Assembly (NCBI GenBank): GCA_947650365.1
Contig: OX393555.1
Span: 16,480,251-16,544,250, forward strand
Origin: Chamaelirium japonicum
Lineage: Eukaryota; Streptophyta; Magnoliopsida; Liliales; Melanthiaceae
Length of the DNA: 64,000 nucleotides
Direction of reading: 5' to 3'
In this document: positions 27,839-62,024 of the stretch, piece by piece
Numbering within the stretch: the stretch's first letter is position 1
Layout: every line of letters starts with the position of its first letter
Position numbers and translations under genes: made by a program
Notes under the pieces: model-generated
What the model saw: only the letters and a program-made list of their open reading frames with translations
Told to the model about the DNA's origin: nothing
Database searches by the model: none

Positions 27839-28525
27839 TGTGGGTGCAAAATCTGGCTAACGCCCAACGGTAGAACCCGCAGCCTTGCCTGGGGCCCACG
27901 AGTCCAACGGTGGGACCCGCAGCCCTGCTTGGGGGCCACGAGTACGACGGTGGGACCCGCAGCCCTGCTTGGGGCCCACGAGTACGACGGTGGGACCCGC
28001 AGCCCTGCTTGGGGCTCACTTGCACTATCTAGGGTCTGACAAATGCCCCCGAGTATTTACCAAACACGAGATATTACTGAAAAATATTCATGGAATATTC
28101 CCTAAATAAACCAAACCTCTATAGATAGTAGACTCTTTAAATGACTCAAGATCCAAAGTTCTAGACCAGAAACCCACTTTCTGTTTTCCAGAGCTTTTTG
28201 AGTTTTTTGGTTTTCAGACTCCTTTTCCACCCTCTGATTACTTGTAAGAAGCACTCCTCGGCCTGTCGAGAGTAGCTTTACTGTTTATTTAAAGATAGTG
28301 GATTCAAAGGTTGCATCTTACCGCACAGAGATGTAGGCTTCGGCCGAACTCCGTTATCACATCCTGTGTTATCTTTTTCTCTACTTTTCTACTCTACAGT
28401 GCTTGTGTGACAGCCCAGTAAGTCACAACTCAACGCTTCGAAGCGCGCCACATCCCGAAGGGTCAAACCTTCAATCTACTGTTGGAGGAGGGTCAAGTAC
28501 GACAGCCATGAAATCCTCCCCCATA
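27839..28525 (+). repeat. 5' LTR of the outer element
   Basis: It begins tgtgggtgcaaaatctgg and ends near aatcctccccca/ta. Near its start, a subrepeat of about 40 bp (agt-acgacggtgggacccg and agccctgc) is present four times, against five in the 3' LTR, which explains the 39-bp length difference. The later part (cctcggcctgtcgagagtag and gaactccgttatcaca) resembles the same part of the inner element's LTR, so the two families are related. Confidence 0.85.
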
Positions 28526-28528
28526 GTT

Positions 28529-28545
28529 TGGCACCGTCTGTAGGA
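28529..28545 (+). promoter_or_regulatory. Primer-binding-site region of the outer element
   Basis: tggcaccgtctgtagga follows the 5' LTR after three bases. It is the same motif, with changes, as tggcgccgtctgtggga in the inner element. The motif is usual just after the 5' LTR in this Gypsy lineage. The primer tRNA was not determined. Confidence 0.6.
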
Positions 28546-28642
28546 TCCGTCCTATCAACTTGCAACTTACAAGCTTCCCAGATCCTTCGGTAACAGCTAC
28601 CGATCGCCCGAGCAATCTGTTTATTTCCATCGCTACACCTAA

Positions 28643-29377
28643 ATGGTGAAAACACCGATGGACCAGCCGGAGGAAAGCAGCATGCACCCAGATGCTCACA
28701 TCCAACGACTCGCTCAATGAGTTGTCGGTTTGCAACAAGCCAATACCCGAAATAATAACTCGCTATTAATTCAAGGGTCGCCCGTCGGTTGATCGCGCTG
28801 CGCAGGCTCAACCTCGACAATCACCTCAACTAGTTGACCAAATTCCTCAGCGCTTGAGGAAAGCCCATGTCCCTCCCAGTACCGGTGCTCAAGTGTCATA
28901 CCAAATCACAGCAGAGGACTTCCAACTCCTCACCCTCATAAAGCATAATACTGCTCTCATTGTGGAGAGCGACTCCCTTCGATAGATTGCCCTCAAAGCA
29001 GGAACTGACCTCCCACGGTCTGTCGCTGGCATCAAGGACGGAGCAAACGTCTACTAATCGATAGACCGATCTCCCGTTCCTTCCAGATGATCCGTCGTTG
29101 ACATCCCTCGATGTTCTCTCAAATCCTTCTCGAGAGAACCCTCGCCTATTCCTCCCAGGCCGACTGTCTGGGAGTGTCTAATGAGTCTGCTCACCATCTC
29201 AAGTCTCTCGGCTCCGAGTCATCCTCCGAGCCCTTCATCGTGAGGGATGTTCGGAATGATAGGCACCGCTCCAAAGTTCGGTAATATTACAAAGGCGATC
29301 GAACCCCAATCGGGCATCGAATGACGAGATGGACTCCAACGCCCTCTCTGCCTCCTCTTCGTCCGAGACGCCCCTCC
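28643..29377 (+). pseudogene. 5' part of the outer element gag, decayed
   Basis: An ATG at 28643 opens a frame beginning MVKTP, matching the MVKAS start of the inner gag, but it stops after 25 codons. Further on, a segment reads as YQITAEDFQLLTLIK, the counterpart of the inner YEISAADFQLLNLIK, so this is homologous gag with frameshifts and stops. The segment ends at the insertion point of the inner element. The target duplication cctcc is at 29373-29377. Confidence 0.75.
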
Positions 29378-29993
29378 TGTGGGTGCAAAAATTGTACCGG
29401 ACCAGATCAGAGCAGCATGGGTCCGCGCAACGGCCCAAATGGGTAAGCCCGCCTGGGCTCACATGGGCCCACTCTACGAGGCTCACAAATCAAGCCCTAC
29501 CCCTTATTGGGCCCGAACAACGGCCCAATAAGGGCCCAGCAAGGAGGCCCAGAACCAGTGCCACGTCATCAGCGCCACGTCATCACTGCCATATCGGGCA
29601 CGTGCCTACGCTACAAAAGGACCCCCAAGGCATCCAGGAAGGGGGTTGGTCATTCAATCAGAGGAGGAGAGGATCCAGAGCCAGAGTCAGAGCCCTCTAT
29701 TCTCCCCACCTTGTTCTCTTCTAGTTGCTCCGCGCAACCCCACTGTACGAAGCTTCTCTCGGCCTGTCGAGAGAACGCTCACCCTTTAAATTCAAATTAT
29801 AGTGAAGATCAGGTGGCACCTCTCGCCCGGAGACGTAGGTCGTAAGACCGAACTCCGTCACCAATCCTTGTGTCATCGCTCTTTATTCTCTCTATCTATG
29901 CTCCCATCTCTCTAACTCTACAAACAATCCAATTCAATCAAGGCTGTGGGGGCGGGATTCTCGATCAAGGCAGCTCGAAAATTTCTCCCCACA
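29378..29993 (+). repeat. 5' LTR of the inner element
   Basis: 616 bp from tgtgggtgcaaaa to ttctccccaca. It carries a tandem gccacgtcatc pair near 29560 and a TATA-like ctacaaaagg at about 29611. It ends in CA before the primer-binding region. The frame that seems to open gag at 29870 starts inside this LTR and is not the natural start. Confidence 0.95.
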
Positions 29994-29998
29994 ATCTT

Positions 29999-30015
29999 TG
30001 GCGCCGTCTGTGGGA
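29999..30015 (+). promoter_or_regulatory. Primer binding site region of the inner element
   Basis: tggcgccgtctgtggga begins five bases after the 5' LTR. Its first eight bases match the tRNA-Asp-type primer site seen in many plant Gypsy elements. The remainder diverges, so the exact primer tRNA is open. Confidence 0.7.
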
Positions 30016-30133
30016 TATCGTTAGAGGTCTTACCCACACCTCTACCGACTCCTATTCAACTTGTGGTGACGAGCCACAAGTCCTCCTCCAAATCAACCTC
30101 AACGCCTTCATCACGCCAACATCAACACGCTCG

Positions 30134-31786
30134 ATGGTGAAGGCCAGCACCAACCCACCAAAGGCGGGTGCTGAACGAATAAATGATATACTGATCGAAG
30201 AAGAACAAGAAGTCTCGGTTGCAACCAACCGAAGAAAGGTTCGTGAACGACTGGGGCCGCAAGGCAGCCTTCCAGAAGGGCACAGCGATCGGCGAGACCC
30301 ATCATCCTCGAGGCTTCGGTTCGGCAAAGAACCTGCTGTTCAAGGGAACGAGCCTCAGGCTACATATGAGATCTCGGCTGCTGACTTCCAGCTGTTAAAT
30401 CTCATCAAGAAGAATGCGGCCCTCGAACAAGAGAGAGACTCCTTGAAGAAAGTAGCTGAGAGGGCGGGGGTTATGATCCTCAACTCTCCTGCTGCGACTG
30501 AAGGCCCACTGAAGACTCACCCAGCTGCGAGTCATCATCTTGAAGAACCGTATGTGTCGCGGATCGAGAGGCGTCAGGTGTCCACACAAGCACCAAGGCA
30601 AACGGTGTGGGATCGCCTCGATGTCGATGGTGCACTAAGTTATCGCCGAGAAGGATCGCCTCAGTCAACAAGGTCCACTGGACGTTCTATCCCTTCGCAC
30701 ATGAAAGCAACAAATGCCCGCGAGCTGCTCAACCGATTAAGGCATACCGCCGACATGGGACGCCGTCATCAAGACCGTAGACAGCTAATCACCTCGGTGG
30801 GGCCACTGCATCCCCAGGTTCTAGTAACCCCATTTCCTATGGGTTGGCGAACACCGAGCCTGCCAAAGTTCAACTGCATCAAGGGAGACCCTGCTCTCCA
30901 TATCCTAGCCTACAAGCAGGCCCTGACGCCGTACGAGTATGAGAACCATGTTCTTTGCCGTATGTTTGCGGGAAGCCTCGAGGGACCTGCCCTCGACTGG
31001 TACTACACACTGCCTACTGGTACGGTGACCACATTCAAAGAATTGGCTGAACTCTTCATGGACCATTACCGGCTAAACTTAAAGCCGGAAAAGAAGCTGG
31101 ATACACTCCACCGGCTGAAGATGGGCTCCGATGAGTCTCTAAGGAGCTTCACGATGAGGTTTCGTAATGAGCACTCTGAGCTCACCGGTCGGTCCCAGAA
31201 TGAGGAGGCCATCATGCTGGCATTCCAGAATGCTATCCGGCCAGAGCTCCACGTCTACACCGACTTCATCCGGTACCCTCCCAGTACCTTAGAGGCAATG
31301 TTCAAGCGCGTACAGCGGGAAATAGAGGTGGAAGACAATCAGCAGGTCAGAAGATTACGCGAGCCCCGCGAGTATCGTGACTCCCGACATAAGAAAGATG
31401 ATGAAGCTCCTAATGAAGCACGCTACAAGAAGTCTGCCCATGCTGCGTCCGACCAAAAGGCCCAGGCCAAAAGGTACAATGAAGATCCGAAAGCCCCTCC
31501 AGCAGAAAAGAGGCGAACTCCAAGGGAGCAAAGGGTGTTCACTGAGCTGAACACCTCCATTGAAGACATCTTCGCCTACTTACAGAATGAGCCCTTTTGC
31601 AAGTGGCCACAGCCTCTCCCTCCAAATTCCGACCAGGCGCCAGATACGACAGCCTACTGTGAGTTTCATCGCAGCCATGGCCACCCAACCTCTACATGTC
31701 GGAAGCTAAAGCATCACATCGAAGACCTGATCCAAGAAGGGCGGCTCGATGGCTACCTCGCTAATAAGGAACCAGGTCGAGAGTAG
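30134..31786 (+). CDS. Gag protein of the inner LTR element
   Basis: 550 codons, open, starting at the ATG that gives MVKAS. The frame is also open upstream into the LTR, but this ATG matches the start of the related outer gag. After a charged N-terminus and a short coiled-coil-like stretch (LIKKNAALEQERDSLKKVAE), residues about 225-345 form the Retrotrans_gag domain (RMFAGSLEGPALDWYYTLP, then LNLKPEKKLDTLHRLKMGS). Near the C-terminus is a knuckle of the form C-x2-H-x4-H-x4-C (CEFHRSHGHPTSTC), standing in for the usual CCHC. Gag makes the particle that packages element RNA. In full elements the polyprotein continues into protease and RT, but here it stops after NKEPGRE. An AATAAA occurs at 31881. 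Confidence 0.93.
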   Translation: MVKASTNPPKAGAERINDILIEEEQEVSVATNRRKVRERLGPQGSLPEGHSDRRDPSSSRLRFGKEPAVQGNEPQATYEISAADFQLLNLIKKNAALEQERDSLKKVAERAGVMILNSPAATEGPLKTHPAASHHLEEPYVSRIERRQVSTQAPRQTVWDRLDVDGALSYRREGSPQSTRSTGRSIPSHMKATNARELLNRLRHTADMGRRHQDRRQLITSVGPLHPQVLVTPFPMGWRTPSLPKFNCIKGDPALHILAYKQALTPYEYENHVLCRMFAGSLEGPALDWYYTLPTGTVTTFKELAELFMDHYRLNLKPEKKLDTLHRLKMGSDESLRSFTMRFRNEHSELTGRSQNEEAIMLAFQNAIRPELHVYTDFIRYPPSTLEAMFKRVQREIEVEDNQQVRRLREPREYRDSRHKKDDEAPNEARYKKSAHAASDQKAQAKRYNEDPKAPPAEKRRTPREQRVFTELNTSIEDIFAYLQNEPFCKWPQPLPPNSDQAPDTTAYCEFHRSHGHPTSTCRKLKHHIEDLIQEGRLDGYLANKEPGRE

Positions 31787-31880
31787 GAGAGGTTGCAGCA
31801 GTGGAGAAAAGAAAGACAATGTAATACGTGGATGCCGCGGGGCAACCTCTGAAAAAGTGTAACTGCAACTTTGTTATATC

Positions 31881-31886
31881 AATAAA
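31881..31886 (+). terminator. Candidate polyadenylation signal after gag
   Basis: AATAAA lies 95 bp after the gag stop and is followed by a T-rich stretch. It could end a short gag-only transcript, separate from the genomic RNA that must run into the 3' LTR. This is a sequence match only. Confidence 0.4.
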
Positions 31887-31959
31887 GTGTCCTTTTTTTT
31901 CTCAAAATCAAACCTCTCGAAGTTCGATTCCACCATATTAAGGCAAAAAAAAAAAAAAA

Positions 31960-32735
31960 AAAGCTCCTGGCAAACCAGGTCAACCAAAGACCTTCGATTC
32001 CGCCCATTCAAGTCGGAAGCTCGAAGGCAATTCGGCTACGCCCTCTCGAGGCTAAAGTCCGATAAAAAGGCTCCTGGCAACCCAGGTCAACCAAAGACCT
32101 TCGATTCCGCCCATTCAAGTCGGAAGCTCGAAGGCAATTCGGCTACGCCCTCTCAAGGCTAAAGTCCGACAAAAAGGCCCCTGGCAACCCAGGTCAACCA
32201 AAGACCTTCGATTCCGCCCATTCAAGTCGGAAGCTCGAAGGCAATTCGGCTACGCCCTCTCGAGGCTAAAGTCCGATAAAAAGGCCCCTGGTAACCCAGG
32301 TCAACCAAAGACCTTCGATTCCGCCCATTCAAGTTGGAAGCTCGAAGGCAATTCGGCTACGCCCTCTCAAGGCTAAAGTCCGACAAAAAGGCCCCTGGCA
32401 ACCCAGGTCAACCAAAGACCTTCGATTCCGCCCATTCAAGTCGAAAGCTCGAAGGCAATTCGGCTACGCCCTCTCGAGGCTAAAGTCCGATAAAAAGGCC
32501 CCTGGCAACCCAGGTCAATCAAAGACCTTCGATTCCGCCCATTCAAGTCGGAAGCTCGAAGGCAATTCGGCTACGCCCTCTCGAGGCTAAAAGTCCGATA
32601 AAAGGCTCCTGGCAACCCAGGTCAACGAAAGACCTACGATTCTGCCCATTCAAGGCGGAAGCTCGAAGGCAATTCGGCTACGCCCTTTCAAGGTGAAAGT
32701 CAGATAAAACGCTCCTAACAATCCAGGTCAAGCTA
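31960..32735. repeat. 107-bp tandem array, about seven copies
   Basis: The ctcctggcaa block recurs at 31964, 32071, 32178, 32285, 32392, 32499, 32606 and 32712, a period of 107 bp. Each unit has inverted pairs: cctgg/ccagg around caac, cttcga/tcgaag around the centre and cctctcgagg. It follows gag in the place where pol would start. Adjacent copies differ by a few bases. Confidence 0.9.
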
Positions 32736-32768
32736 AACTATCAACTATACTCATATGAGGCAATGAGA

Positions 32769-33850
32769 ATAAGTCCGAGGCGACCAGTGCCTCGGCACTC
32801 TACAAGCCCAAGGCCCAGCCCTTGGCACTCGAAGACAAAGTCCAAGGCGATCAATGCCTCGGCACTCTACAAGCCCAAGGCCCAACCCTTGGCACTCGAA
32901 GACAAAGTCTGAGGCGACCAGCGCCTCGGCACTCTATAAGCCCAAGGCCCTGCCCTTGGCACTCGAAGACAAAGTCCGAGGCGACCAACGCCTCGGCACT
33001 CTACAAGCCCAAGGCCCAGCCCTTGGCACTCGAAGACAAAGTCCGAGGCGACCAGCGCCTCGGCACTCTATAAGCCCAAGGCCCTGCCCTTGGCACTCGA
33101 AGACAAAGTCCGAAGCGATCAATGCCTCGGCACTCTACAAGCCCAAGGCCCTGCCCTTGGCACTTGAAGACAAAGTCCGAGGCGACCAATGCCTCGGCAC
33201 TCTACTAGCCCAAGGCCCAGCCCTTGGCACTCGAAGACAAAGTCCGAGGCGACCAGCGCCTCGGCACTCTACAAGCCCAAGGCCCAGCCCTTGGCACTCG
33301 AGGACAAAGTCCGAGGCGACCAGTGCCTCGGCACTCTACGAGCCCAAGGCCCAGCCCTTAGCACGCGGAGAAAAAGTCCGAGGTGACCAATGCCTCGGCA
33401 CTCTACAAGCTCAAGGCCCAGCCTTTGGCACTCGGAGACAAAGTCCGAGGCGACCAGCGCCTCGGCACTCTACAAGCCCAAGGCCCAGCCCTTGGCACTT
33501 GAAGACAAAGTCCGAGGCAACCAGCGCCTCGGCACTCTACGAGCCCAAGGCCCAGCCCTTGGCACTTGAAGACAAAGTCCGAGGCGACCAGCGCCTCGAC
33601 ACTCTACAAGCCCAAGGCCCAGCCCTTGGCACTTGAAGACAAAGTCCGAGGCAACCAGCGCCTCGGCACTCTACGAGCCCAAGGCCCAGCCCTTGGCACT
33701 TGAAGACAAAGTCCGAGGCGACCAGCGCCTCGGCACTCTACAAGCCCAAGGCCCAGCCCTTGGCACTTGAAGACAAAGTCCGAGGCGACCAGCGCCTCGG
33801 CACTCTACAAGCCCAAGGCCCAGCCATTGGCACTTGAAAACAAAGTCCGA
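32769..33850. repeat. 67-bp tandem array of nested hairpin units, about 16 copies
   Basis: ttggcactcg-type blocks recur every 67 bp (for example 32822, 32889, 32956). Each unit has an outer inverted pair gcctcgg/ccgaggc enclosing an inner pair ccaaggc/gcccttgg, a two-level hairpin. Because 67 is 1 modulo 3, long open frames pass through all three reading phases and yield a 67-residue periodic peptide (frame 32854-33636). I regard that as incidental. Confidence 0.92.
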
Positions 33851-34246
33851 GACGTTGTCGCCGACGTATTGGCATTCGATCAAAAGTCCAAGCTTAGTCT
33901 TGTTACTCAGGTCCAAGCATCAGATCATCACTGGCCATCACCTTTTTTTTTGACGACTAACGGTTCCAAACCGGTCAGGGGGTGGTTGGTCTGACTCTGG
34001 CAGTGCGTGTCTCCATACTGGTGCAGTCGACGGTGGGTAACACGGGATAAAATGGTGCTTCCATGATCCTGGCCAAGCCAACACCCTCACGTGACCGTAG
34101 TACCTGGTGAATACAGTAACCAGGTGCGGTAATACATTGGGTGAAGACCGGCTGGCCATCATGCGGCGTCATCCTAGATTATCTCTAAGAAACCCCCTCA
34201 AATATAGCGTTGTCCCTCGCCGATATCCCCGCGCGCTAGAGTTTTA

Positions 34247-34319
34247 CCGAAAAAGTGTCGGTTTCAAATGGGGCTGAAATTCGAAAAATACACTATTTTC
34301 AATACCGACACTTTTTGGC
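34247..34319. repeat. Isolated 15-bp-stem inverted repeat
   Basis: ccgaaaaagtgtcggt at the left is matched by accgacactttttgg at the right, separated by about 40 bp. It lies just before the 119-bp hairpin array and uses the same cggt/accg theme. Confidence 0.7.
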
Positions 34320-34349
34320 CTCTTCTAGCAGCCCCAATAATGGGGTGTC

Positions 34350-35235
34350 AGCATCAAGCAGCCCCCCCCTCGGTTTCGCACAAAAACTGAGTGGGGAAGG
34401 GGTGACGGCACACCATCAGCGGCACACCCCTCGGTTTCGTCAGAAAACCGAGAGGGGGTGTGTGTCGGCATCAACAAGCAACCCTCCCTCGGTTTCGCAC
34501 AAAAATCGAGTGGGGAAGGGGTGACGGCACACCATCAGCAGCACACCCCTCGGTTTCGTCAGAAAACCGAGAGGGGATGTGTGTCGGCATCAACAAGCAA
34601 CCCTCCCTCGGTTTCGCACAAAAACCGAGTGGGGAAGGGGTGACGGCACACCATCAGCGGCACACCCCTCGGTTCCGTCAGAAAACCGAGAGGGGGTGTG
34701 TGTCGGCATCAACAAGCAACCCTCCCTCGGTTTCGCACAAAAACCGAGTGAGAAGGGGGTGACGGTACACCATCAGCTGCAACCACCCCTCGGTTTCGTC
34801 AGAAAACCGAGAGGGCGTGTGTGTTGGTATCAACAAGCAGCCCCCCCTCGGTTTCGCACAAAAACCGAGAGGGGGTGTGTGTCGGCATCAACAAGCAACC
34901 CCCCCTTGGTTTCGCACAAAAACCGAGTGGGGAGGGGGCGACGGCACTCCATCAGCACACCCCTTGATTTCGTCAGAAAATCGAGAGGGGGTGTGTGTCG
35001 GCATCAACAAGCAACCCTCCCTTGGTTTCGCACAAAAACCGAGTGGGGAAGGGGCGACGACATACCACCAGCGTCTCACCCCTCGGTTTTGCACAAAAAA
35101 CCGAGTAGGGAAGGGGTGACGGTGCGCCATCAGCAGCCCACCTCTCGGTTTCGACATAAAACCGAGAGGGGGGGGTGTATGGCATCAATATCATCCCACC
35201 CCTTTGGTTTCGTCAGAAAACCGAGAGGGGGGGTG
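34350..35235. repeat. 119-bp tandem array with two hairpins per unit
   Basis: cggtttcgca recurs at 34371, 34490, 34609 and 34728, a 119-bp period. Later copies are partly truncated or rearranged. Each unit has ctcggtttcgcac followed by aaaaaccgag, and ctcggtttcgtcagaaaaccgag with a stem of eight bases. Both are hairpins with the ctcggttt/aaaccgag stem. The open frame at 34579-35259 is produced by the repeat. Confidence 0.9.
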
Positions 35236-35564
35236 CTCGGTGTCATCCACACACGATGATTAGCCAAAGACGAAGAGTTATCTTCCATTGGGTTGGTTGA
35301 ATAGCATCTCCACCAAACCTATTGAGTTGGTTGTACAAACTTCACAAGCAAAATTCCTCCTTCTTATCTGGGGGTGAACTCGTGGTAACCGCCGCGTCAT
35401 CGCTAGGACCTGACTGCAGTCCCTAGTGAATACAGTAACTAGGTGCAGTTGGGTGTCGAACAGAGACGGATGAGTTACCGCGTATCGATGCCTCTTCAAG
35501 ACGCGCGTAGGACACTCGGCCAATGCGTTCTTTAGAGTCATCTCTTTATGAAGGTGATTACCGA

Positions 35565-36060
35565 AAAAGTTACTCGTCAAGGTGTGCGATGTTTCACGTC
35601 CACTTTGATCGATTTTTCGGCGCCTACGCAACGACACCTTATACGCATTGACCCGACTTGTGTATGAAAAGTTATGACTGTCGGAAGGTTTCAAGGTCTT
35701 TTTCTTCGAAGACATGCATTGGAAATATTACACGCAAAGGTGCCCAACGCTTTATGTCCACTTTAACCAGTTTTTCAGTGCCGACGCAACAACGCCTTAT
35801 ACGCATTGATCTGGCGCGTGTATAAAAAGTTATAACAGTTAGAAATTTTCGACGCCTTTTTCTCCGAAGGCAGGCATCCGAAAGGTTACACGTCAAGGTG
35901 TGCGATGTTTCACGTCCACTTTGATCGGTTTTTTGGCTCCGACACAATGACACCTTATACGCGGTGATCCGACGTGTGTATGAAAAGTTATGATTGTCTG
36001 AAGACTTCGAGACTCATATCTCCAAAATAAGGCATCAGGAGAGTTACACGTCAACGCACG
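35565..36060. repeat. 158-bp tandem array, three copies
   Basis: The tccacttt block after cacgtc/tatgtc occurs at 35599, 35757 and 35915, giving a 158-bp period. Copies share ccttatacgc and gtgtatgaaaagttatgac. The copies are more diverged than those of the 67-bp array. Confidence 0.85.
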
Positions 36061-36717
36061 CCGGGTTTCGCCCTTCGGTGTCAGCACAACGCCGCCGTCC
36101 CGGACGCCCGCATGCATCCCTCCACCTGCACGTAATCCTCCGCATGGCAGCAACGAACCCAGGGGGGAGATTCGACTTCTCTTCAACCGGAATGTCCCCG
36201 GCGACACCGGCGAGGGGGACAGGTCCTCGACGCAAAGGCTCTCTTGTGCAGACACCGCCCACGGCTCTCTCTCCGACTCGCACCCGGCTCCCTCTGCCAC
36301 TGGCGCATGGGTCCGCCCACCGCTTGCGTGCGACCCGGCCTTCCTCTCAGCTCGCATAGATCTGCAGCAATCCGGCTCTACAGCACTCGCCACAACAATG
36401 AAGGACTCTTTCATACCCTCAACTTGGCTCGCAAAGCTCCTCGCTCAGGGCAAAGCCTTTCCCCGCATCTGCACGCCCTCCAAGCGGCGGCGGCCGTCTT
36501 GGGCGACGCCAACTCGTCCACGTGAGACGCTAGCCCATGGTTCTCTCCATGCAGCGTGATGCCTACTCCTCCATGCGAGCCTCTCCTCGCAGCCGACCGA
36601 GATAACGCGGAGGGGGTCAGACGAACCGAGCTCCCTCCCATCGCGCGCGCGTCAATCCCGATCCAGGCCTTCTCCTCCCAACCGCCACCACCGCTCTCCG
36701 CCGCACCGGGACCAACA
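36061..36717. other. Unassigned GC-rich block inside the inner element
   Basis: About 650 bp with high GC, between the 158-bp array and the COMT fragment. Several open frames exist on both strands but no domain was recognised. It could be further captured host DNA, such as the leader or promoter of the COMT donor gene, or of another gene. I cannot decide from the sequence. Confidence 0.4.
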
Positions 36718-37370
36718 ATGGGCTCCGTCGAGAACCAGCCCCCGGTGGCGGCTGCCGATGACGAGATGGCGTGCATGTACGCGATGCAGGTGGTGAGCTT
36801 CTTCGTCCTCCCCATGACCCTCAAGGCCGCCGTCGAGCTCGACCTGTTCGAGATCATCTCCAAGGCCGGCCTCGGCGCCTACCTCTCCCCCTCCGAGATC
36901 GCCGCCCAGCTACCGACCGAGAACCCGCAGGCCCCCGTGATGCTGGACTGGATCCTACGCCTCCTCACCAGCTACTCCATCCTCACCTGCTCCCTCTCCA
37001 CCGGAGACGACGGCCGCGTCACCCGGCTCTACGGGGCGACGCCGGTGACCAAGTTCCTGACGAGGAACGAGGACGGGGTGTCGATGGCGTCGGGGGTGCT
37101 GGTGATCCAGGACCGGGTCCAGATGGAGAGGTGCTGGAGGGTGGGATCCCGTTCAACAAGGCGTTCGGGATGTCGGCGTTCGAGTACCACGGAACCAACC
37201 CGAGGTTCAACAAGGTGATCAACGACGGCATGCGGGGCCACTCCACCATCATCACGAAGAACATCCTGGAGCGGTACGGCGGGCTTCGACGACGTCAGGG
37301 TGCTCGTCGACGTCGGCGGCGGGATCGGCGCCTCCCTCCACCTCATCGTCTCCAAGCACGCCGGCCACCA
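36718..37370 (+). pseudogene. Captured caffeic acid O-methyltransferase (COMT) fragment
   Basis: The ATG at 36718 opens a frame that is clearly the N-terminal half of a plant COMT, the lignin-pathway enzyme that methylates caffeate and 5-hydroxyferulate-type substrates using SAM. Recognisable pieces are the dimerisation part ([31 protein letters not shown]), [35 protein letters not shown] and the SAM motif [12 protein letters not shown]. Three defects are visible. After 413 nt, about 22 nt are missing at the place where COMT genes usually carry intron 1, and no intron is present. A one-base insertion lies before the FDDV part. Homology ends after the IVSK motif near 37370, so the catalytic half is absent. 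It is in the same orientation as gag. The codon usage is GC-rich, unlike the host introns. It cannot make an active enzyme. Confidence 0.88.
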
Positions 37371-37574
37371 CTTGCACACCGGACCCCGACTCGCCGCGCC
37401 ATCGCTGCTGTTGCTGCCGACCTCCACCGCTGCTGCGCTGGCCCGCCCGACCCAACCTCGACCTCGCGTCGACACCGCCGCCCGCAGTGCCACATGCGTC
37501 GCCCATGCCCACCACCTGGGCCTCGCATGCGCCCGGCCTCTGTGCCGTCGTCGCCGCTGTTGCTGTGCCTACGC

Positions 37575-37955
37575 GAACAAAAAAAAAAAAAAAAAACAGA
37601 GAAGGAAAGAGAGAGAGAGAGAGAGAAAGAAAAGAGAGAGAGAGGGACTCTCTCTCACGTGAATGAAAAACAGAGAGAGAGAGGGGCGTCCACTCTCACA
37701 TGCAGGTCAAAGCCAAAGAAAGGGGAAAGAGAGAGAGAAAGGAAAGAGAGAGCGGGGGTACGCTGCAATCTCCCGTGAACCAAAGAGGAAAGAGAGAGCG
37801 GGGCACGCTGGGGATTATCTGTTGGGTGCCATCGGACGGACTGTGATGCAGCCGGACTCAGAACGATTGGAATGAATCCGCCAAGAATAGAAAAAACAAA
37901 AGCAAAGAAAGGAAAGAGAAGCAAAGAAAGGAAAAAGAGAAAAAAAACTGTTCTC
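37575..37955. repeat. GA-rich low-complexity tracts
   Basis: After an A run, the sequence is dominated by gagagaga and aaagagaga on the plus strand up to about 37800, and again near 37890-37950. Charged reading frames over it are artefacts. It separates the COMT fragment from the last array of the element. Confidence 0.75.
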
Positions 37956-37959
37956 TCAC

Positions 37960-38285
37960 CAAGAGGGTCTCGGTATGCTCTCGGTACCCTCTCGGTATGC
38001 ACTCGGTATGCTCTCGGTACCCACTCGGTATGCACTCGGTACCCTCTCGGTATCCACTCGGTCGGAAAACGCACTGCCTTTTCGGAAACACCCCCATGCA
38101 AAACCGAGACTTTTTGGCTTGCACCAAAAGGGTCTCGGTAACCACTCGGTATGCTCTCGGTACCCACTCGGTATGCACTCGGTACCCTCTCGGTATCCAC
38201 TCGGTCGGAAAACGCACTGTTTTTTCAGAAACACCCCCTCGCAAAACCGAGACTTTTTGGCTCGCGCCAAAAAGGGTCTCGGCAT
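37960..38285. repeat. Short ctcggta array with two large hairpins
   Basis: Dozens of 10-12 bp units of the form actcggtatgc, actcggtaccc and tctcggta are arranged in two blocks. Each block is followed by a hairpin of the form accgagactttttgg, short loop, ccaaaagggtctcggt. The blocks are about 150 bp apart and nearly identical, so this is also a tandem duplication. Confidence 0.85.
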
Positions 38286-38405
38286 CGGCGGAAGAAGGCT
38301 CTGCTAATACGAACCGCGGCACCGACAACCCTCGCCAACCGCGCCAGGATCCTAAAGCGTTTGCACCTTGGAATCCCAGCCGACCCAGGGGGTCCTGACC
38401 CGACT

Positions 38406-38414
38406 GGGAGGGGG
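38406..38414 (+). promoter_or_regulatory. Polypurine tract of the inner element
   Basis: gggaggggg followed by taat lies directly before the 3' LTR at 38419. The outer element has the same tract before its own 3' LTR. It serves as plus-strand primer in reverse transcription. Confidence 0.85.
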
Positions 38415-38418
38415 TAAT

Positions 38419-39034
38419 TGTGGGTGCAAAAATTGTACCGGACCAGATCAGAGCAGCATGGGCCCGCGCAACGGCCCAAATGGGTAAGCCCGCCTGGGCT
38501 CACATGGGCCCACTCTACGAGGCTCACAGATCAAGCCCTACCCCTTATTGGGCCCGAACAACGGCCCAATAAGGGCCCAGCAAGGAGGCCCAGAACCAGT
38601 GCCACGTCATCAGCGCCACGTCATCACTGCCATATCGGGCACGTGCCTACGCTACAAAAGGACCCCCAAGGCATCCAGGAAGGGGGTTGGTCATTCAATC
38701 AGAGGAGGAGAGGATCCAGAGCCAGAGTCAGAGCCCTCTATTCTCCCCACCTTGTTCTCTTCTAGTTGCTCCGCGCAACCCCACTGTACGAAGCTTCTCT
38801 CGGCCTGTCGAGAGAACGCTCACCCTTTGTATTCAAATTATAGTGAAGATCAGGTGGCACCTCTCACCCGGAGACGTAGGTCGTAAGACCGAACTCCGTC
38901 ACCAATCCTTGTGTCATCGCTCTTTATTCTCTCTATCTATGCTCCCATCTCTCTAACTCTACAAACAATCCAATTCAATCAAGGCTGTGGGGGCGGGATT
39001 CTCGATCAAGGCAGCTCGGAAATTTCTCCCCACA
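38419..39034 (+). repeat. 3' LTR of the inner element
   Basis: 616 bp, identical in length to the 5' LTR. I count six substitutions by eye: one near 38463, one near 38529, two adjacent near 38828, one near 38866 and one near 39019. It ends ttctccccaca and is followed by the target duplication cctcc. Confidence 0.95.
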
Positions 39035-39039
39035 CCTCC

Positions 39040-39816
39040 AACCAACGAGATGATCGTCAGAACAATCACACCTCCGAAGGGCCACTTCATCAGCACATTC
39101 TCCGAGCCCTATTTCCTCGAAGTTGGAAAGCTCTCGCTCTCTTCAAGTTCAACTGCCTGACTGTAGATCCAATGCTACACATCCTCACCTTCAGGCAAGC
39201 ATTGACACCACATAATAGCGACAACCAGGTTCTATGTCGTACCTTTGCTGGTAGCCTGGACAAGATGTCGCTCAATTGTTATCATAACCTCTCGACCGGT
39301 TCCGTGAGTTGGTTCGAGGATCTGATAGACCTCTTTGTTCAACACTATCAGCTGAACCTCAAGCCAGAAAAGAAGCTGGACTCCCTTTACCAGCTCAGGA
39401 TGGGATCAGATGAAACCCTCCGAGAGTTTTCTCGAAAGTTCCGGAACGAGCATGCTGCACTCTCTGGACACCACCTCGACGATGAAGCCATCATGCTCGC
39501 ATTCCAGAATGCCCTATACTTTTACCTCCATATCTATAATGACCTCATCCGCAATCCTCATACCTCCCTCGGAGTGCTATTTGATCGAATTCAAAAGAAG
39601 ATCGAGATGGAGGACGATTAAGTCGCTCGCAAGAAATGTGACTTCGAGAAGTGCCTTTCTGATAAGGAACTAACGAGACCAACAACTCAAGCCCACAACG
39701 CTCAGGCTGACAAAGATGGAATCTCCAAGAGACCGAGGCAGGTAGGCGATAGACCCATAAAGCCTCAAAAGACCACGAATACCAAAGGGAAGCAGCCCAT
39801 CCACCGATCAGAGTAG
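39040..39816 (+). pseudogene. 3' part of the outer element gag
   Basis: The frame from about 39106 to 39621 encodes a Retrotrans_gag domain closely parallel to the inner gag: RTFAGSLDKMSLNCYHNLS, LNLKPEKKLDSLYQLRMGS and HLDDEAIMLAFQNAL. It is interrupted by a TAA at 39619. The same frame then stays open to a TAG at 39814 and encodes a basic tail without the zinc knuckle. With the 5' part at 28643-29377 it forms one gag split by the inner insertion. It is not functional. Confidence 0.85.
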
Positions 39817-39954
39817 AAAGGCCTCCGGTGACTGTCAACAACTCGGAATGTCGCTCATCTGAAATCCATGATGTAACATCTTCGAGTTATCAATGAAATG
39901 ATAAATTGTTTCAAGTTATATCGAAGACTATCAAATTCTATCTCAACTTCTATT

Positions 39955-41105
39955 AAATACTCTAGTTAGTTCGGTTCGCATTGCGACACGGTCGACTAAC
40001 TTGGAACGTTACAAAACTATATGTCCCGATACGTAGGTTTGACTGAAATGGCACTTCGTCTAAGTCCAATCGATACAAGGCCGCTATGTTGATTACTCCG
40101 AATCATTGGTGTCGCACATGCTCCCGTTGTCACGTAAGGACATATGCACTAGTGTCTCGCCACAGTTAGTTTGGTTCACGTTATGACACGGCTAACTAAC
40201 CTGCAATGGTACAAAAATACATGTCCCGATACGTAGGTTCAACTGAAACGGTACTTTGCCTAAGTCCAACCGATACAAGGGCGCTACATTGAGTATTTCG
40301 AATCATTGGCATCGCATATGCTTCCGTTGTCACGTAAGGACACATGCACTAGTGTCTTGCCACAATTAGTTCGGTTCATATTGCGACACGGCCGACTAAC
40401 CTACAACAGTATAAAGCTACGTGTCCCGATACATAGGTTCGACTGAAACGACACTTTGCCTAAGTCCAACCGATACAAGGGCGCTACGCTGAGTACTCCG
40501 AATCATTGGCGTCGCACGTGCTCCCGTGGTCACGTAAGAATACATGCATTAGTGCCTCACCATAATTAGTTCGGTTCTTACGACACGGCCGACTAACCTG
40601 CAACGGTACAAAGCTACGTGTTCCGATACGCAGGTTCGATTGAAACGACACTTCGCCTAAGTCCAACTGATATAATGGTGCTACACTGAGTAATCTGAAT
40701 AATTGGCGTCACACATGCTTCCGTTGTCATGTAAGGACACACGCACTAGTGTCTCGCCACAGTTAGTTCGGTTCGCGTTGCGACATGGCCGACTAACCAG
40801 CAATGGTACAAAGCTATGTGTCATGTTACATAGGTTTGACTGAAACGGCACTTCGCCTAAGTCCAACCGATACAAGGGCGCTACGCTGAGTACTCTGAAT
40901 CATTGGCGTTACACACGCTCCCGTTATCACATAAGGGCACATGCACTAGTGCCTCGCCATAGTTAATCTGGTTCGTGTTACAACATGGCCGGCTAACCTG
41001 CAATGGTATAAAGCTACGTGACCCCCGATGTAGGTTTGACTGAAACGGTGTTTCTCCTATGTCAAATCGATACAAAGGCACCACACTGAATACTCCGAAT
41101 TCTTA
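39955..41105. repeat. 200-bp tandem array, about six copies (outer element)
   Basis: The agttagttcgg block recurs at 39964, 40164, 40364, 40564, 40761 and 40961, a 200-bp period. Each unit has cgacacggccgactaacc, tacaaagctacgtgtcccga and cgatacaagggcgctac. Copies have drifted by several bases each, in keeping with the greater age of this element. Confidence 0.9.
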
Positions 41106-41109
41106 CCCC

Positions 41110-42400
41110 CATCGACTAGTAAGTCCAAGGTCTCGCCCTTGGCATTCGAAGACAAAGCCCGAGACGGCAACATCGCCTCAGCCCAAGGTGGCAACCTTGG
41201 CATTCAAAAGCAAAGCCCGAGGCAACCTCCACCTCCTCGGCACCTGCCAAAGTCCGAGACGTTAACACCGTCTCGACTCGAGGCGACCTCTGCCTCGACA
41301 TGAGCAGACAAAGTTCAAAGTGATCAACTCCTCAACACTTAACAAGCCTAAGGCCCTTCCCTTGGCACTCGATGATAAAGTTCGAGACAGGTCCTGCCAC
41401 CTTGGCACCTGACGAAGTCCGAGACGTCGGCACCGTCTAGGCCCGAGGAAACACTCACTTCGGCATTCAAAGACAAAGTCAGAGGTAAGCTTCATCGCCT
41501 CGGCACCTGACAAAGCCAAGGCGTCGGCATCGTCTCAGACCGAGGAGACATTCGCCTCGATATTCAAAGACAAGGTCCGAGGCAAGCTTCACCGCCTCGG
41601 TATCTGACGAAGCCTGAGAGTCGGCACCGTTTCGGCCCGAGGCGACCTTTGCCTTGACATTTAAAGAGAAATTCCGAGGTAGGCTTCGCTGCCTCAGCAC
41701 CTGACGAAGCCTGAGACTTCGGCACCATCTCAGCCCGAAGCAGCCTTCGCCTTGGCATTCGAAGACAAAATCTGAGGCAGCCTTCGTTGCCTTGGTACCT
41801 AACGAAGCCAGTGACGTCGGTACCATCTCGGCCCGAGGCGACCTCCGTCTCGGCATTCGAAGACAAGGTTCGAGGCAGGCTTTGCCGCCTTGGCACCTGA
41901 CGAAGCCCGAGACGTCGGCACCATCTCGCCCCAAGGCAACCTTCGCCTCGACATTCGAAGACAAAATCCGAGACAGGCTTTGCCGCCTCGGTACCTGACG
42001 AAGCCCGAGACGTTGACACCGTCTCGGCCTAAGGCGACCTCCGCCTCAACATTCGAAGACAAAGTCCGAGGCAGGCTTCACCACCTCAGCACCTGACGAA
42101 GCCCGAGGAAACCCCTGCCTCGGCATTCGAAGACAAAGTCCGAGGCAGGCTTCGCCACCTCGGCACCTGACGAAGCCCGAGACTTCGGTACCATCTCAGC
42201 CCGAGGCAACCTTAGCCTTGGCATTCGAAGATGAAGTCTGAGGTAGGCTTCGCTGCCTCGGCACCTAACGAAACTCGAGACGTTAGCACCATCTCGGCTC
42301 GAAGCGACCTTTGTCTCGGCATTCAAGGACAAAGTCTGAGGTCGCCATCACCGCCTCGGCACTCGACAAAGTTTGAGGCTGCCGTCGTCGCCTTGGTGCC
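41110..42400. repeat. About 98-bp tandem array of hairpin units (outer element)
   Basis: The ggcacctgacgaag block repeats about every 98 bp (for example 41892 and 41990). Units carry ccgagacg/cgtctcgg and gaggcg/cgcctc inverted pairs. They share attcgaagacaaagtccgag with the 67-bp array of the inner element, so the two arrays have common ancestry. Confidence 0.88.
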
Positions 42401-42409
42401 CAACAAAGA

Positions 42410-42850
42410 ATACGATGACAGGCACGACGACCGTCGCCGATCAGCACATCGGTCGACACACCCCCGCCCGGCCCTTGGCAAGGGGTCGGCGGGCGCGACA
42501 GCCGACGCTAGACAACACGGAGACGACTGACGCTGGACAACGCGTTGATAGGCACGATGCCCGTCATCGGACAACACATCGGCGAACGCACCCCCAGCCG
42601 GCCCTTTGCAGGGGGTTGGCGGGCACGACGGTCGACACCAGTCAATGCGACGATGGGCACGATGGCCGATGCCAGACAACGCGTCGATAGGCGCGATGCC
42701 CGTCGTCGGACAACACATCAACGGACGCACATCTGGCTGGCCCTTGGTAGGGGATCGGTGGGCACGACCATCGACGCTGGTCAACGCAGCAACGGGCGTG
42801 ATGGTCGACGTCGGACAACGGACGTCAGATAACGGGCGGCAGCTGCGTTG
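42410..42850. repeat. About 130-140 bp GC-rich tandem array (outer element)
   Basis: Blocks of the form acatcggcgaacgcaccccc, ggccctttgc and gggcacgac recur near 42446, 42573 and 42714. They are interleaved with gatgcccgtcgtcggacaac. Reading frames here are rich in Arg, Asp and His and are repeat artefacts. Confidence 0.8.
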
Positions 42851-42899
42851 CCTGTAACATCCGCGAGCCCGATGTCACATTGCCCGTCGTCAAATTGGC

Positions 42900-43860
42900 C
42901 TATTGGATCTTGGCTATTGGCCTATTGGATTTTGGTCGTCCATTGCTCGTCGTCAAACAACATATCGGCGAGCCCGACGGTCGATGTCCAACAACATGCA
43001 CCGACAAGCTTATTTGAGTTTGTTGGGTTACAAGGCAAGCTCAAGCAAGCCAAAGCTCGGCTCGGCTCGTGTCGACCCACTCCAGTTTCAACTGTGTAGC
43101 CCCTTTTCTCGGATTTTTGAGTGGGTGTGTGTGAGAAAGAGAGTTAGAGTGTGTGAGGGAGAAAAAAAAACAAAACATCTTGCAAGACCCCCCCCCCCCC
43201 CCTTACAAGAACCCCCTTCGGCCACCCTCGCGCCCGGCAACCGCCTACCACCGCTCCGGCCACCCCCTCCCACCGCCCTCCGGCCACCCTCGCGCCCGGC
43301 CACCGCCTCTCGCCACCCTCGTGTAGCCTGGCCTCCCACCTGACAACCCGACCCCTCCCGGCTGTCGTCTCTTCCCCGTGTCCGGCTGCCCCTGAACCCG
43401 CGCTGCCCTGCTCCGTCCGCACCCCTGTCGCGCCACCCCTCCGGCTGCCGTCCCTTCCCCTCGCCCGGCCTCCTCCACTGCCGCAACTGCCACCCGAGCC
43501 ACCACCGCTCGACTACCTCCTCCCTCCCCTGTTAATCAAACCCTGCGGCCCGACCCCGATTTTTTCCCTTTTGCTCAAAACCCCCCAACCCTGCAACTTT
43601 TGCCAAACCCCCCCAGCTGCCAGATTTGACTAAAAAACACTGCCCAACATTTTTTGCAGAAAAACCCCTACCTCCCAGAATCTTTGATCAAACCCCCCTG
43701 CACCATTTTTTTTTGGCCAAACCCCCCTGCCCCTAATATTTTTGGACCAAAGCCCCCCCCCCCGGTTTTTTGGCCCGAACCGTCCTGCGCGTGGTTATTT
43801 TTGTGACCCCAGTCAACCTGGTTAACACCTACCCAACTGGGAGGGCGTAACACACACGTA
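42900..43860. repeat. C-rich low-complexity interior of the outer element
   Basis: From about 43180 there are C runs and ccgccaccctcgcgcccggc-like repeats, followed by degenerate units of the form aaacccccctgc near 43560-43770. Near 43828 a copy of the polypurine-tract region (gggagggcgtaac) precedes the real one at 44089. No coding sequence was recognised. Confidence 0.65.
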
Positions 43861-44088
43861 GTCGGTCTCACGCAACGGGATGGCAGACGCACAACAGTCG
43901 GCCCAGACAGGGGACGACAGACGCATAACGGTCGGCCCCGGACAGAGGGTCGGCAAGCTGACAATGGTCGACCCCAAGCAACTGGCCGACAGATGTACGG
44001 CGAAAATTTCCAAAAAGATGGTTGACAGACAAGCAACCAGCTTTGCTCCAGAAAAATCCCAACCAGTTTGGTTAACACCTATCTAGTT

Positions 44089-44097
44089 GGGAGGGGG
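44089..44097 (+). promoter_or_regulatory. Polypurine tract of the outer element
   Basis: gggaggggg then taac directly before the 3' LTR at 44102, the same arrangement as in the inner element. Confidence 0.8.
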
Positions 44098-44101
44098 TAA
44101 C

Positions 44102-44827
44102 TATGGGTGCAAAATCTGGCTAACGCCCAACGGTGGGACCTGCAATCCTGCTTGGGGTCCACGAGTCCAACGGTGGCACTCGTAGCCCTGCCTGGGGCCC
44201 ATGAGTCCAACGGTGGGACCCGCAGCCCTGCCTGGGGCCCATGAGTCCAACGGTGGGACTCGCAGCCCTGTTTAGGACCCACGAGTACGACGGTGGGACC
44301 CGCAGCCCTGCCTGGGGCCCACTTGCACTATCTGGGATCTGCTAAATCCCCCCGGGTATTTATCAAACCCCGGATATTCCTAGGAGTATTCATGTAATAT
44401 TCCCCAAATAAATCAAACCTCTATAAATGGAAGACCCTGTAAATGACTCTAGATCCAAAGTTCCAGACCAGAAACCCACTTTCTGTTTTCTAGAGCTCTT
44501 CGAGTTTTCTGGTTTTCAGACTCCTTTTCCACCCTCTGATTACTTGTAAGAAGCACTCCTCGGCCTGTCGATAGTAGCTCTACTGTTTACTCAGATATAG
44601 TGGATTCAAAGGTTGCGTCTTACCGCACGGAGATGTAGGCTTCAGCCGAACTCCGTTATCACATCTGTGTCATCTCTTTCTCTACTTTTCTACTCTACAA
44701 TGCTTATGTGACAGCCCAAGCCAGTCACAACTCAGCAATTCGAAGCGCGCCACATTCCGAAGGATCAAATCTTCAATCGACTGTTGGAGGAGAGTCACAT
44801 ACGACGACCACAAAATCCTCCCCTACA
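44102..44827 (+). repeat. 3' LTR of the outer element
   Basis: 726 bp, beginning tatgggtgcaaaatctgg (the expected TG is mutated to TA) and ending cctcccctaca. It has five copies of the roughly 40-bp cggtgggacccgcagccctg subrepeat. Right after it comes gtacc, matching gtgcc left of the 5' LTR at four of five bases. Confidence 0.85.
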
Positions 44828-46040
44828 GTACCCCAAACGACGTCAAATGGCCAAGGCTCATCACTTAGATAAGCCAAGCATCTGTCGGCCGTTAGAAGGG
44901 GTCGTAGGTTAAGCATTTGAGGTAAGCACTTTGAGTCTGAGCTTACTCTCAACACGATCATCAATCAATATCCAGGATTCGCCCAGGATTCCCATCCGAT
45001 CGGCACAAACAAGGATTAGGAGAGCACACTCCGTGTAGCAGTACTCAGTAGCACTCGCCGAGCCTGGCCTGCCCCATTGTTGGTCGGTCGACGGAAAGGT
45101 TCGAGCCTAGTCGGTCAGTCGAGACCACCAGTTGTTGGTCAGTCGACGAGAAGGGGCCGGGCCTGATCATTTGAAGAGAGATGGTGCGGGAGTTGAGCTG
45201 AATCATACCCTCATTTTGAATCTCTCACTAGTATGATTCACGGAACAATCATCGGATGGTTGTGACATATCTACATCAAGTAGCATAAGAAATGAGGGGG
45301 GTGGAATTATTGAGGCCCACCCATTCACCCCTATCACCGTTGGAGAGAATAAAAGAAGTGGGAACCATCACTTCTTTAATGGGGGAATAGCTAGAGCATC
45401 AAGTGGCAACCATCGACCGGCTAACTGGTCAGCCAAATCAAGGGCTCTTGATTGAGGGTGTTACTATCAAGCAACCCTTTCACAGTGGGGGTTAATCACC
45501 AGGAGGTCATCCGATCATACATTGGGTTTGATATCGTCGTTGAATCATTGAGTGTAAAAGGGAAGCAGTTATACCTACAAGAATAAAGTCCACTAGCCCA
45601 TAGCACCACCAACGGACCGACTGACTGCACTAACAATCGACCGACCGACTAATACAAGGGGGAGCATCCTACTACACCTTGGCCGACCGAGTTAAAGAAG
45701 GCTGAACTTTTCAGACTTGTGTATACCTTGACGAATGGAGGCCGGCCGCGCGCTTCGTATGCTCAAGTAGAGATCGGCTGCACATTTCATCGCGGGCCGG
45801 CCGCATGCTTCATTCGCCTGGGACAGGCCGATCGCGCGCTTCGTTTGCCCGAATGGAGACTAGTCGTAAACTTCATCGCGGGCTGGCCGTGCACTTCGTC
45901 ACTGGCTGGCCGCGCACTTCGTTATCAGCTGGTCGCGCACTTCGTTCGCCTCAGAAGGAACAGGCTGCACACTTCATTACCGGCCGGCCGCGCGCTTCGA
46001 GGGGAACCTGTTCTCTCCGACCCAGGGAAGTTTTGATATT
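44828..46040. other. Intergenic retroelement-like debris
   Basis: No gene was recognised. From about 45735 to 46000 there is an irregular array of ggccggccgcgcgcttcg-like units in which cgcgcacttcgt recurs every 25-50 bp. Around 45060-45160 there are repeated gtcggtcagtcga blocks. It is probably the interior of another decayed retroelement. Confidence 0.5.
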
Positions 46041-46700: not shown

Positions 46701-47235
46701 GGGAGAGCAGTCGAACTATGTTCGCCACTTAGGCATGTTTGGTTACGTGCAGTTGTAACTCGTAGATCAACACCGCACTACCACAGGGTTGTGTCTGTTT
46801 CATTCCATGTAGTCCCGCCCAATTCATGTAGTTTGAACTACTGCGTAGCCAAATTTCTATAGAAAACCTGGTAAAAGCTGTGTGGTCCAACAACACGTAC
46901 CAACCACTGCACGGTGTAGTAAGAACCGTAGCAAACCAAATTACCATCACCGTAACTTCGGGGCTCCCATCCCGCCCCTAACATACGCCACAACCATGCC
47001 TTGTCCTCCTCCTCTCATTAGATCCTCAATGAACCAGAACATTGCAAATCCCTCATGCGCTCTCTCCACCATTCCTCTGATTCCCCCTTGCCAATTGCCA
47101 TCGTGATCCCTGCTATCATATCAACCATTTCAAGGTTTGTAGTTGTGAGGTTTAAAAAATTTCCTATTGATCTTTGATAAACTAGCTAAAACAACAGTTC
47201 TCATACAAAATACATTGGAAATAGTAATTGACATG

Positions 47236-61834: not shown

Positions 61835-62024
61835 TTTTATAATTAATATAAAGAGCACGACTCATTTGCTGAGTCAACATCCGCCCCAATAGAATGAGTG
61901 TACACCACGATTACCCATTATCCCCGAGCTAATGGATGACGTGGCACATCATGATTGGGCAGTAAGCAAGTGCAGCAAATCAATCGGTAACAAAAATGCC
62001 CTCGTCCTACTTATAACATACACT

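Follow-up and report, generated by a model that had tools for sequence, protein, structure and literature searches.

A 64,000-nucleotide stretch of Chamaelirium japonicum DNA (assembly GCA_947650365.1, contig OX393555.1, positions 16,480,251 to 16,544,250 of the forward strand; here called the window) carries two retroelements with long terminal repeats (LTRs), one within the other, whose internal regions contain tandem arrays, some of them built from hairpin-forming units. We read them as two related, gag-only elements of the Ty3/gypsy type with a Tat-like hypervariable region, in which hairpin modules are remodelled by exchange at shared arms; we would put the chance that this whole reading is right at about even. 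The evidence that carries it is the anatomy of the two elements, the homology between one array of the inner element (B) and one of the outer element (G), the folding of arrays B and C, which is better than that of shuffled controls, and three junctions within shared arm stretches, namely, two chimeric modules in array C and one module deletion between two CCGAG arms in array G.

On this reading, the stretch from gag to the 3' LTR would be a hypervariable tandem-array region of a kind known from Tat-lineage elements. Its modules may be gained, lost, or swapped from one copy to another when strand transfer or recombination takes place at the recurring hairpin arms. Such exchange would most likely occur during reverse transcription, and the hairpins themselves may promote it. 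Because the modules of one array share their arms, an exchange there would restore a hairpin, so that the fold would persist while spacers and repeat period change. An original prediction, made from the letters of this stretch, had instead proposed that hairpin-unit arrays replace pol in both elements and that their foldable design is kept by selection or by a replication mechanism that favors hairpins.

Anatomy and coding content of the nested elements

Self-comparison and LTR alignment identified both elements, the inner inserted in the gag of the outer; with their LTRs, gag frames, tandem arrays, and hairpins, they lie on the forward strand (all coordinates are those of the window). The outer, older element spans 27839..44827. 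Its 5' LTR (27839..28526) and 3' LTR (44102..44827) are identical at 609 of 685 aligned bases (88.9%), and its 5-bp flanks, GTGCC/GTACC, differ by one mismatch; TTTGGCACCGTCTGTAGGA, which resembles a primer-binding site, follows the 5' LTR, and GGGAGGGGGTAAC, which resembles a polypurine tract, stands just upstream of the 3' LTR. The inner, younger element (29378..39034) has 616-bp LTRs at 29378..29993 and 38419..39034, identical at 610 of 616 positions (99.0%), and is bounded by a CCTCC target duplication at 29373-29377 and 39035-39039. After its 5' LTR comes TGGCGCCGTCTGTGGGA, which by its letters resembles a primer-binding site, and in both elements a primer-site-like TGGCRCCGTCTGTRGGA follows the 5' LTR and GGGAGGGGGTAA precedes the 3' LTR. 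Flanking LTRs with a short target-site duplication, as expected of LTR retrotransposons, are thus present in both (with the one mismatch in the outer). A forced alignment of the inner with the outer LTR pair gives only about 50% identity, and the two elements are therefore relatives rather than copies. If 1.3e-8 substitutions per site are assumed for each year, the insertions would date to 0.38 (inner) and 4.7 million years (outer), figures that are indicative only. An identical stretch, CTCGGCCTGTCGAGAG, occurs in both inner LTRs (29758-29773 and 38799-38814) and in the outer 5' LTR (28257-28272); by eye, it could form a small hairpin, and it is possibly a conserved R/U5 signal. Both outer LTRs also contain a 40-bp minisatellite (27865-28019, 3.9 copies; 44127-44322, 4.9 copies).

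The inner gag lies in an open frame at 29846..31786 (stop to stop, its start overlapping the 5' LTR) and matches Retrotrans_gag (PF03732; E 8.1e-9); the protein also matches Ty3_capsid with an E of 0.005, under that family's cut-off. Using the inner gag, tblastn located the outer gag in two parts, one upstream at 28851..29180 (36% over 112 amino acids, E 8e-11) and one downstream at 39052..39633 (53% over 194 amino acids, E 6e-74; PF03732, E 1.2e-6). Since these matches stand on both sides of the inner element, the latter lies inside the outer gag, and PF03732, which we took as the mark of the Ty3/gypsy type, is found in both elements. The nesting that the original prediction described is therefore borne out by the LTR pairs, the CCTCC duplication, and the outer gag homology on both flanks. 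A comparison of 307 amino acids of the inner gag with viral and prokaryote contig collections returned no relative, which is uninformative as to its rarity in plants.

Besides the inner gag open reading frame (ORF), we scanned with Pfam all 63 stop-to-stop ORFs of at least 80 amino acids (34 sense and 29 antisense) from 28527-29377, 31787-38418, and 39040-44101. None of the 63 matched a protease, reverse transcriptase, RNase H, or integrase at the Pfam cut-off, and at this ORF length both elements lack pol, as do gag-only (TR-GAG-like) elements. A weak integrase-SH3 match in array H of the outer element (PF18103; E 0.064; 13.9 bits, the cut-off being 25) is taken as chance, because Herpes_LP and Ferlin_C gave equally weak matches. 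Array A, the first of the inner element, begins 170 bp past the inner gag stop. Thus, the proposal that arrays replace pol is correct in that pol is missing, although the space is better described as a Tat-like post-coding array region directly after gag.

The arrays were also considered as protein repeats, a reading that we rejected: unit lengths of 67, 107, 119, and 98 bp are not divisible by 3, the long ORFs across B and C pass through differing frames of consecutive units, and A, B, C, and G have stops in every frame and no Pfam family at the cut-off. Separately, the inner element contains a captured fragment of a caffeic-acid-O-methyltransferase-like plant gene (36718-37359), recognized by PF08100 (E 2.2e-19), by PF00891 in other frames, and by solved O-methyltransferases (best E 1.5e-45).

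Hairpin arrays and junctions at their arms

The 107-, 67-, 119-, and 98-bp arrays originally listed are all present, with 7.3, 16.1, 7.0, and 7.7 copies; that list was incomplete in that the same elements hold three more, of 158, 200, and 139 bp, the first two of which lack an unusual sense fold. In the inner element, array A (107-bp unit, 31957..32731) has the stems CCTTCGA..TCGAAGG and CCTGG..CCAGG, and array B (67-bp unit, 32771..33851) has two hairpin modules per unit. Array C (119-bp unit, 34342..35230; tandem-repeat call, 34345-35171) consists of 15 modules of two hairpin types at 58- to 63-bp spacing, and array D (35565..36054) has 3.1 copies of the 158-bp unit. The outer element contains array F (39964..41100, 5.7 copies of the 200-bp unit), then single, diverged hairpin modules at 41101..41357, and array G (98-bp unit, 41355..42377), with three hairpin modules per unit; the tandem-repeat call for G covers 41355-42107, and more 98-bp copies extend up to 42362. 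Array H (42416..42820, 2.6 copies of the 139-bp unit) shows a marginal fold. Modules are about 33 nucleotides (nt) long in B and G and 58 to 63 nt in C. Both elements therefore share a Tat-type trait, tandem arrays with three or more copies that lie 3' of the coding part and 5' of the 3' LTR (A to D and the 11-bp repeats described below in the inner; F and G in the outer).

Arrays B and G are homologous, with matches such as one of 76 bp (82%) and another of 97 bp (78%), and the diverged modules 5' of G are partly homologous to B and intermediate between the two arrays (41306-41381 is an 82% match to B). B and G therefore count as one observation, and the stem that they have in common is inherited, at least in part. 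The stems named in the original prediction were indeed seen in B and G (CCGAGG/CCTCGG) and in C (CTCGGTTT/AAACCGAG), whereas array A has no CTCGG and no CCGAG and uses other stems. The statement that the foldable design is kept does justice to the older history of a single hairpin family.

The junctions themselves come from arrays C and G. The two module types of C alternate through its first half; 11 of the 15 modules are unmixed, 2 are chimeric (at 34847 and 35082), and 2 are unassigned, the 3' sides of type 1 having been read by eye. In module 34847, the linker and loop are of type 1 and the 3' side is of type 2; in module 35082, a linker of type 2 is followed by a loop and 3' side of type 1. 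The switch points fall in the stretch that the two types have in common, namely, the stem arm. In array G, a short unit of 74 bp at 42098 joins one CCGAG to the CCGAG of the next hairpin, and a hairpin still forms. The mean pairwise distance among copies of array B is 0.073, compared with an inner LTR divergence of 0.0098, so this array was mostly built and diversified prior to insertion.

Further repeats and fold-backs lie nearby. A series of 11-bp CTCGGTAHSC repeats at 37968..38205, in two blocks (37968-38062 and 38134-38205), stands some 200 to 450 bp upstream of the inner 3' LTR; its period is about one DNA turn, and it looks like a row of binding sites. A 143-bp tandem duplication (37990-38282) overlaps these repeats and carries the hairpin ACCGAGAC..GTCTCGGT in its first copy (38103..38139; z -4.25, 0 of 200 shuffles as good) and again in its second (38247..38282; z -3.47, 3 of 200). 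The isolated hairpins predicted near 38.1 and 38.25 kb are thus real, but they are one event rather than two, because they lie in the two copies of a single duplication. Between B and C lies an isolated fold-back of unassigned strand, CCGAAAAAGTGTCGGT...ACCGACACTTTTTGG (34247..34318; z -3.61, equaled by 0 of 200 shuffles), perhaps a small foldback insertion or one like a miniature inverted-repeat transposable element (MITE).

Folding, covariation, and rival readings

Folding energies were compared with shuffled sequences in 120-nt windows (60 shuffles each, both strands; z is given as sense/antisense), in single features (200 shuffles each), and under a strict null in which the doubled consensus unit is compared with 300 shuffled units, each doubled likewise (seeds were unfixed, so the figures are not exactly repeatable). 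Mean window z was lowest in C (-3.18/-3.58, 13 windows) and B (-2.88/-2.99, 16 windows), followed by the modules at 41101-41357 (-2.79/-1.78, 3 windows), G (-1.86/-1.79, 15), H (-1.55/-1.05, 5), A (-1.53/-1.86, 11), and the 38-kb block (-1.34/-1.39, 4), and was near zero in D (-0.40/-0.31, 8) and F (0.03/0.33, 17). In the flanks of the window (1-27800 and 44900 onward; 462 and 316 windows), the mean was -0.3 to -0.4. Windows with z under -3 made up 50%/44% of B and 38%/62% of C, compared with 3 to 4% of the flanks. As single features, A scored -1.86/-1.92, B -3.43/-2.97, C -2.10/-3.06, and H -1.46; a single G unit (41849-41946) was ordinary (-1.13/-1.15, equaled by 25 and 29 of 200 shuffles). 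Under the strict null, B (p 0.030/0.007) and C (0.013/0.003) folded better than shuffled units, A (0.096/0.050) and G (0.063/0.086) were borderline, H gave 0.073/0.279, and the sense folds of D and F were no better than those of shuffled units (0.249 and 0.259; antisense, 0.060 and 0.053). For the other arrays of the window, the values were 0.34/0.57 (40-bp LTR repeat) and 0.36/0.053 (201-bp repeat at 62 kb). The predicted hairpin-unit design, for which comparison with shuffles had been the proposed check, therefore holds for B and C, is borderline in A and G, the single G unit being ordinary, and fails in sense for D and F.

One alternative is passive amplification of a unit whose ancestor happened to be palindromic, such that the hairpins had no role in origin or function and folding is simply inherited from the unit. 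The homology of B and G and the single duplication behind the 38-kb hairpins are in keeping with this, each array being one observation, as is the lack of a sense fold in D and F. Moreover, single-copy stretches of the two elements have a mildly negative mean sense z (inner 5' LTR, -1.21; outer 5' part, -1.21; outer 5' LTR, -1.01), close to array A (-1.53). However, the sequence-unrelated arrays A, B/G, and C and the 38-kb hairpin share the folding trend, and the Fisher-combined p over A, B, C, D, F, and H is 0.0019 in sense and 0.00004 in antisense (0.0033 and 0.0003 with G replacing B), the antisense value being partly owed to D (0.06) and F (0.05) and the unrelated 201-bp array likewise giving 0.053. 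The hairpin classes also covary with one another, as described below. We regard passive amplification as rather unlikely.

A second possibility, which we hold to be highly doubtful, is that the repeats act as DNA-level dyads, i.e., as cis-regulatory or silencing-related palindromes comparable to the small-RNA-attracting motifs of Sireviruses. Relative to first-order expectation, CTCGG and CCGAG are enriched about 5- to 20-fold in B, C, and G and in the 38-kb block, and beyond both elements the window has them at close to the expected level. In passages of PMC2829016, the Sirevirus motifs have a common CGG-CCG dyad core while other bases vary, and a passage of PMC10760457 recounts a small-RNA excess at Sirevirus palindromes. 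By the threshold given there (-40 kcal/mol in 110-nt windows), 48%/100% of B windows and 63%/76% of C windows pass on the two strands. However, array H (65%/77%) and the antisense strand of the O-methyltransferase fragment (46%) pass as well, so this threshold tracks G+C too. In addition, the Sirevirus motifs sit in the LTR and upstream of env whereas the present ones are in the internal region, and array A is without the motif.

A third explanation is selection for a cis-acting RNA structure: the hairpins would bind Gag or aid dimerization or packaging, the enzymes of a partner would copy the gag-only element, and compensatory change would keep the fold. Within arrays, where the structures tested were single folds of the consensus rather than hairpin modules, compensation is almost nil, and this speaks against it. 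Changed pair cells that still pair through a double change number 0 of 16 in A, 0 of 17 in B, and 1 of 76 in G, and single changes that still pair are at the level predicted from the mutation spectrum (observed/predicted, 0.38/0.45 in A, 0.59/0.58 in B, and 0.47/0.49 in G). A mutational origin agrees with this near absence better than strong selection does. Across the 15 modules of array C (10 distinct), 98.8% of core cells are paired, and there is one double change, from G-C to A-U by way of a G-U intermediate, which favors selection on RNA, but 96 of 500 shuffles equal the pairing of this core helix. Counted over 11 of the 15 modules, changes in that helix are C>T in six cases, G>A in one (compensated), and T>C in one, whereas outside it they include C>T in three and G>A in seven (uncorrected for base content), a contrast that also favors a selected RNA. 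The stems of B, on the other hand, have neither a C>T excess (C>T:G>A, 10:6 compared with 11:7 outside) nor fewer polymorphic columns (10 of 28 in stems, 12 of 39 in the rest; Fisher p 0.79). Two apparent signs of selection were set aside: a figure of 6 of 62 compensated cells in C, which mixed the two module types and misaligned linkers, and a lower change rate in B stems (0.030 compared with 0.061 per site and copy), which vanished when counted by column.

The picture differs between the older hairpin classes, whose arms were placed by likeness to consensus arms and not by complementarity. In 71 hairpins (45 distinct arm pairs), pairing and covariation exceeded arm shuffles (p 0.0016 and 0.0002, distinct pairs), in tests that ignore the kinship of copies and in which some misregistered class-2 hairpins of G (e.g., 41607 and 41802) add noise. 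Twelve hairpin classes contain 8 compensated pairs, compared with 2.02 simulated (p 0.00005), and their arms pair at 92% in register and at 21 to 50% when slid; counted conservatively as distinct kinds of double change, the excess is 4 compared with 1.78 (p 0.053). In the simulation, the ancestor (CCGAGGC/GCCTCGG) and the share of transitions (85%) were set by us, and the classes were re-examined once with typed class arms and once with real copies, G3 differing by one base. The proposed compensation check thus gave a negative answer within arrays and a positive one between the arms of older classes: the fold persisted while the classes diverged, although few independent events back this.

Taken together, the arm covariation argues for a selected RNA, whereas D and F lack an unusual sense fold and antisense scores equal or exceed sense scores in A, B, and C, so a function of the sense RNA is not particularly favored; we consider such selection unlikely. 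A stronger form, in which a Gag-binding or dimerizing array would let pol-less elements compete for a partner's particles and enzymes, with compensatory change and with array growth as a by-product, seems to us more doubtful still. Rfam (27800-45000, E up to 1) returned no match, and ARAGORN found no tRNA in the window. That selection follows from the kept design, as originally argued, does not hold, since much of that design is accounted for by common descent, by the sharing of arms, and by exchange from arm to arm; selection for packaging, dimerization, or small RNAs may nevertheless play a part and would be the most interesting alternative.

Several points also weigh against the reading that we prefer, exchange at shared arms. 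The junctions are only three and all in one locus; homologous exchange of any sort between the C types must land in the shared stretch, that is, in the arms; and unequal crossing-over in DNA leaves identical junctions. The covariation between hairpin classes is above what exchange alone predicts, and since D and F are tandem without an unusual sense fold, hairpins are unnecessary for array formation. Finally, the Tat assignment comes from architecture and not from pol, and none of the 29 antisense ORFs of at least 80 amino acids matched Transposase_28 (PF04195) at E up to 0.1 (0.01 for part of them).

Hairpins may nonetheless help to explain how such arrays, a known but poorly understood kind of repeat region, grow and change. 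If hairpins with arms in common often serve as the repeating module, the way in which Tat-type arrays arise becomes testable: array junctions would be expected in arms, and hairpin content would be expected to differ between expanding and non-expanding arrays. If the hairpins were instead a selected RNA device, the unexplained Tat-type arrays would gain a function.

Elsewhere in the window, two open frames at 1049-3224 encode a hAT-type transposase (DUF659, Dimer_Tnp_hAT, and zf-BED, the last barely over its cut-off). Degenerate TTAGGG/CCCTAA telomere-like tracts in inverted arrangement occupy 47229-47937, with a 60-bp repeat (three copies) nearby, and the 201-bp unit is present in three copies with 97% matches at 62024-62630; its sense fold is not unusual.

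Comparison with known systems

Post-coding tandem arrays are a known trait of Tat, Retand, and Ogre elements, as described in passages of PMC7004042, PMC6317226, and PMC11963269. According to parts of PMC7004042, they are common in Tat elements, including Ogre, their proposed cause is abnormal strand transfer between co-packaged copies, and they also seed satellite DNA; a 2025 survey (PMC11963269, in part) calls the origin and eventual function of the Retand arrays unknown. A literature search, mostly of open-access abstracts and passages, turned up no report of hairpin-built arrays in Tat or gag-only elements, and a check of the main text of PMC11963269, PMC7004042, and PMC3305785 for the words "hairpin" and "inverted repeat" found neither.

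The present elements resemble the Tat lineage (Retand/Ogre; passages of PMC11963269, PMC7004042, and PMC3305785) in having several arrays of unrelated units before the 3' LTR, a long internal region, and a 5-bp target duplication, and Tat has non-autonomous members too. Unlike Tat, they lack pol, and the likeness is one of architecture. They also differ from Retand, in which an antisense Transposase_28 (PF04195) ORF is present in 97% of clusters (survey passages of PMC11963269), in giving no such match (0 of 29 ORFs). The soybean element Gmr9/GmOgre, as portrayed in PMC3305785 passages that leave hairpins unmentioned, likewise has interleaved minisatellite families 3' of the coding region, but it has gag-pol.

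With TR-GAG and LARD elements, they share LTRs, primer- and polypurine-like sites, a kept gag, and a missing pol. Unlike these, they contain a number of tandem arrays, together with the captured piece of an O-methyltransferase gene.

Finally, Sireviruses, in passages of PMC2829016, carry multi-copy palindromes with a CCG/CGG core and varying inner bases in non-coding retroelement DNA, and in this the arrays are alike. The Sirevirus motifs, however, are 10 to 20 bp long, belong to Ty1/copia elements, and lie in LTRs and upstream of env, whereas here modules of 33 or about 60 nt stand in head-to-tail arrays beside a Ty3-type gag, and the three LTRs counted have only 0 to 2 CTCGG/CCGAG each. The locus thus combines a Tat-type architecture with a Sirevirus-like dyad theme and is a proven member of neither.

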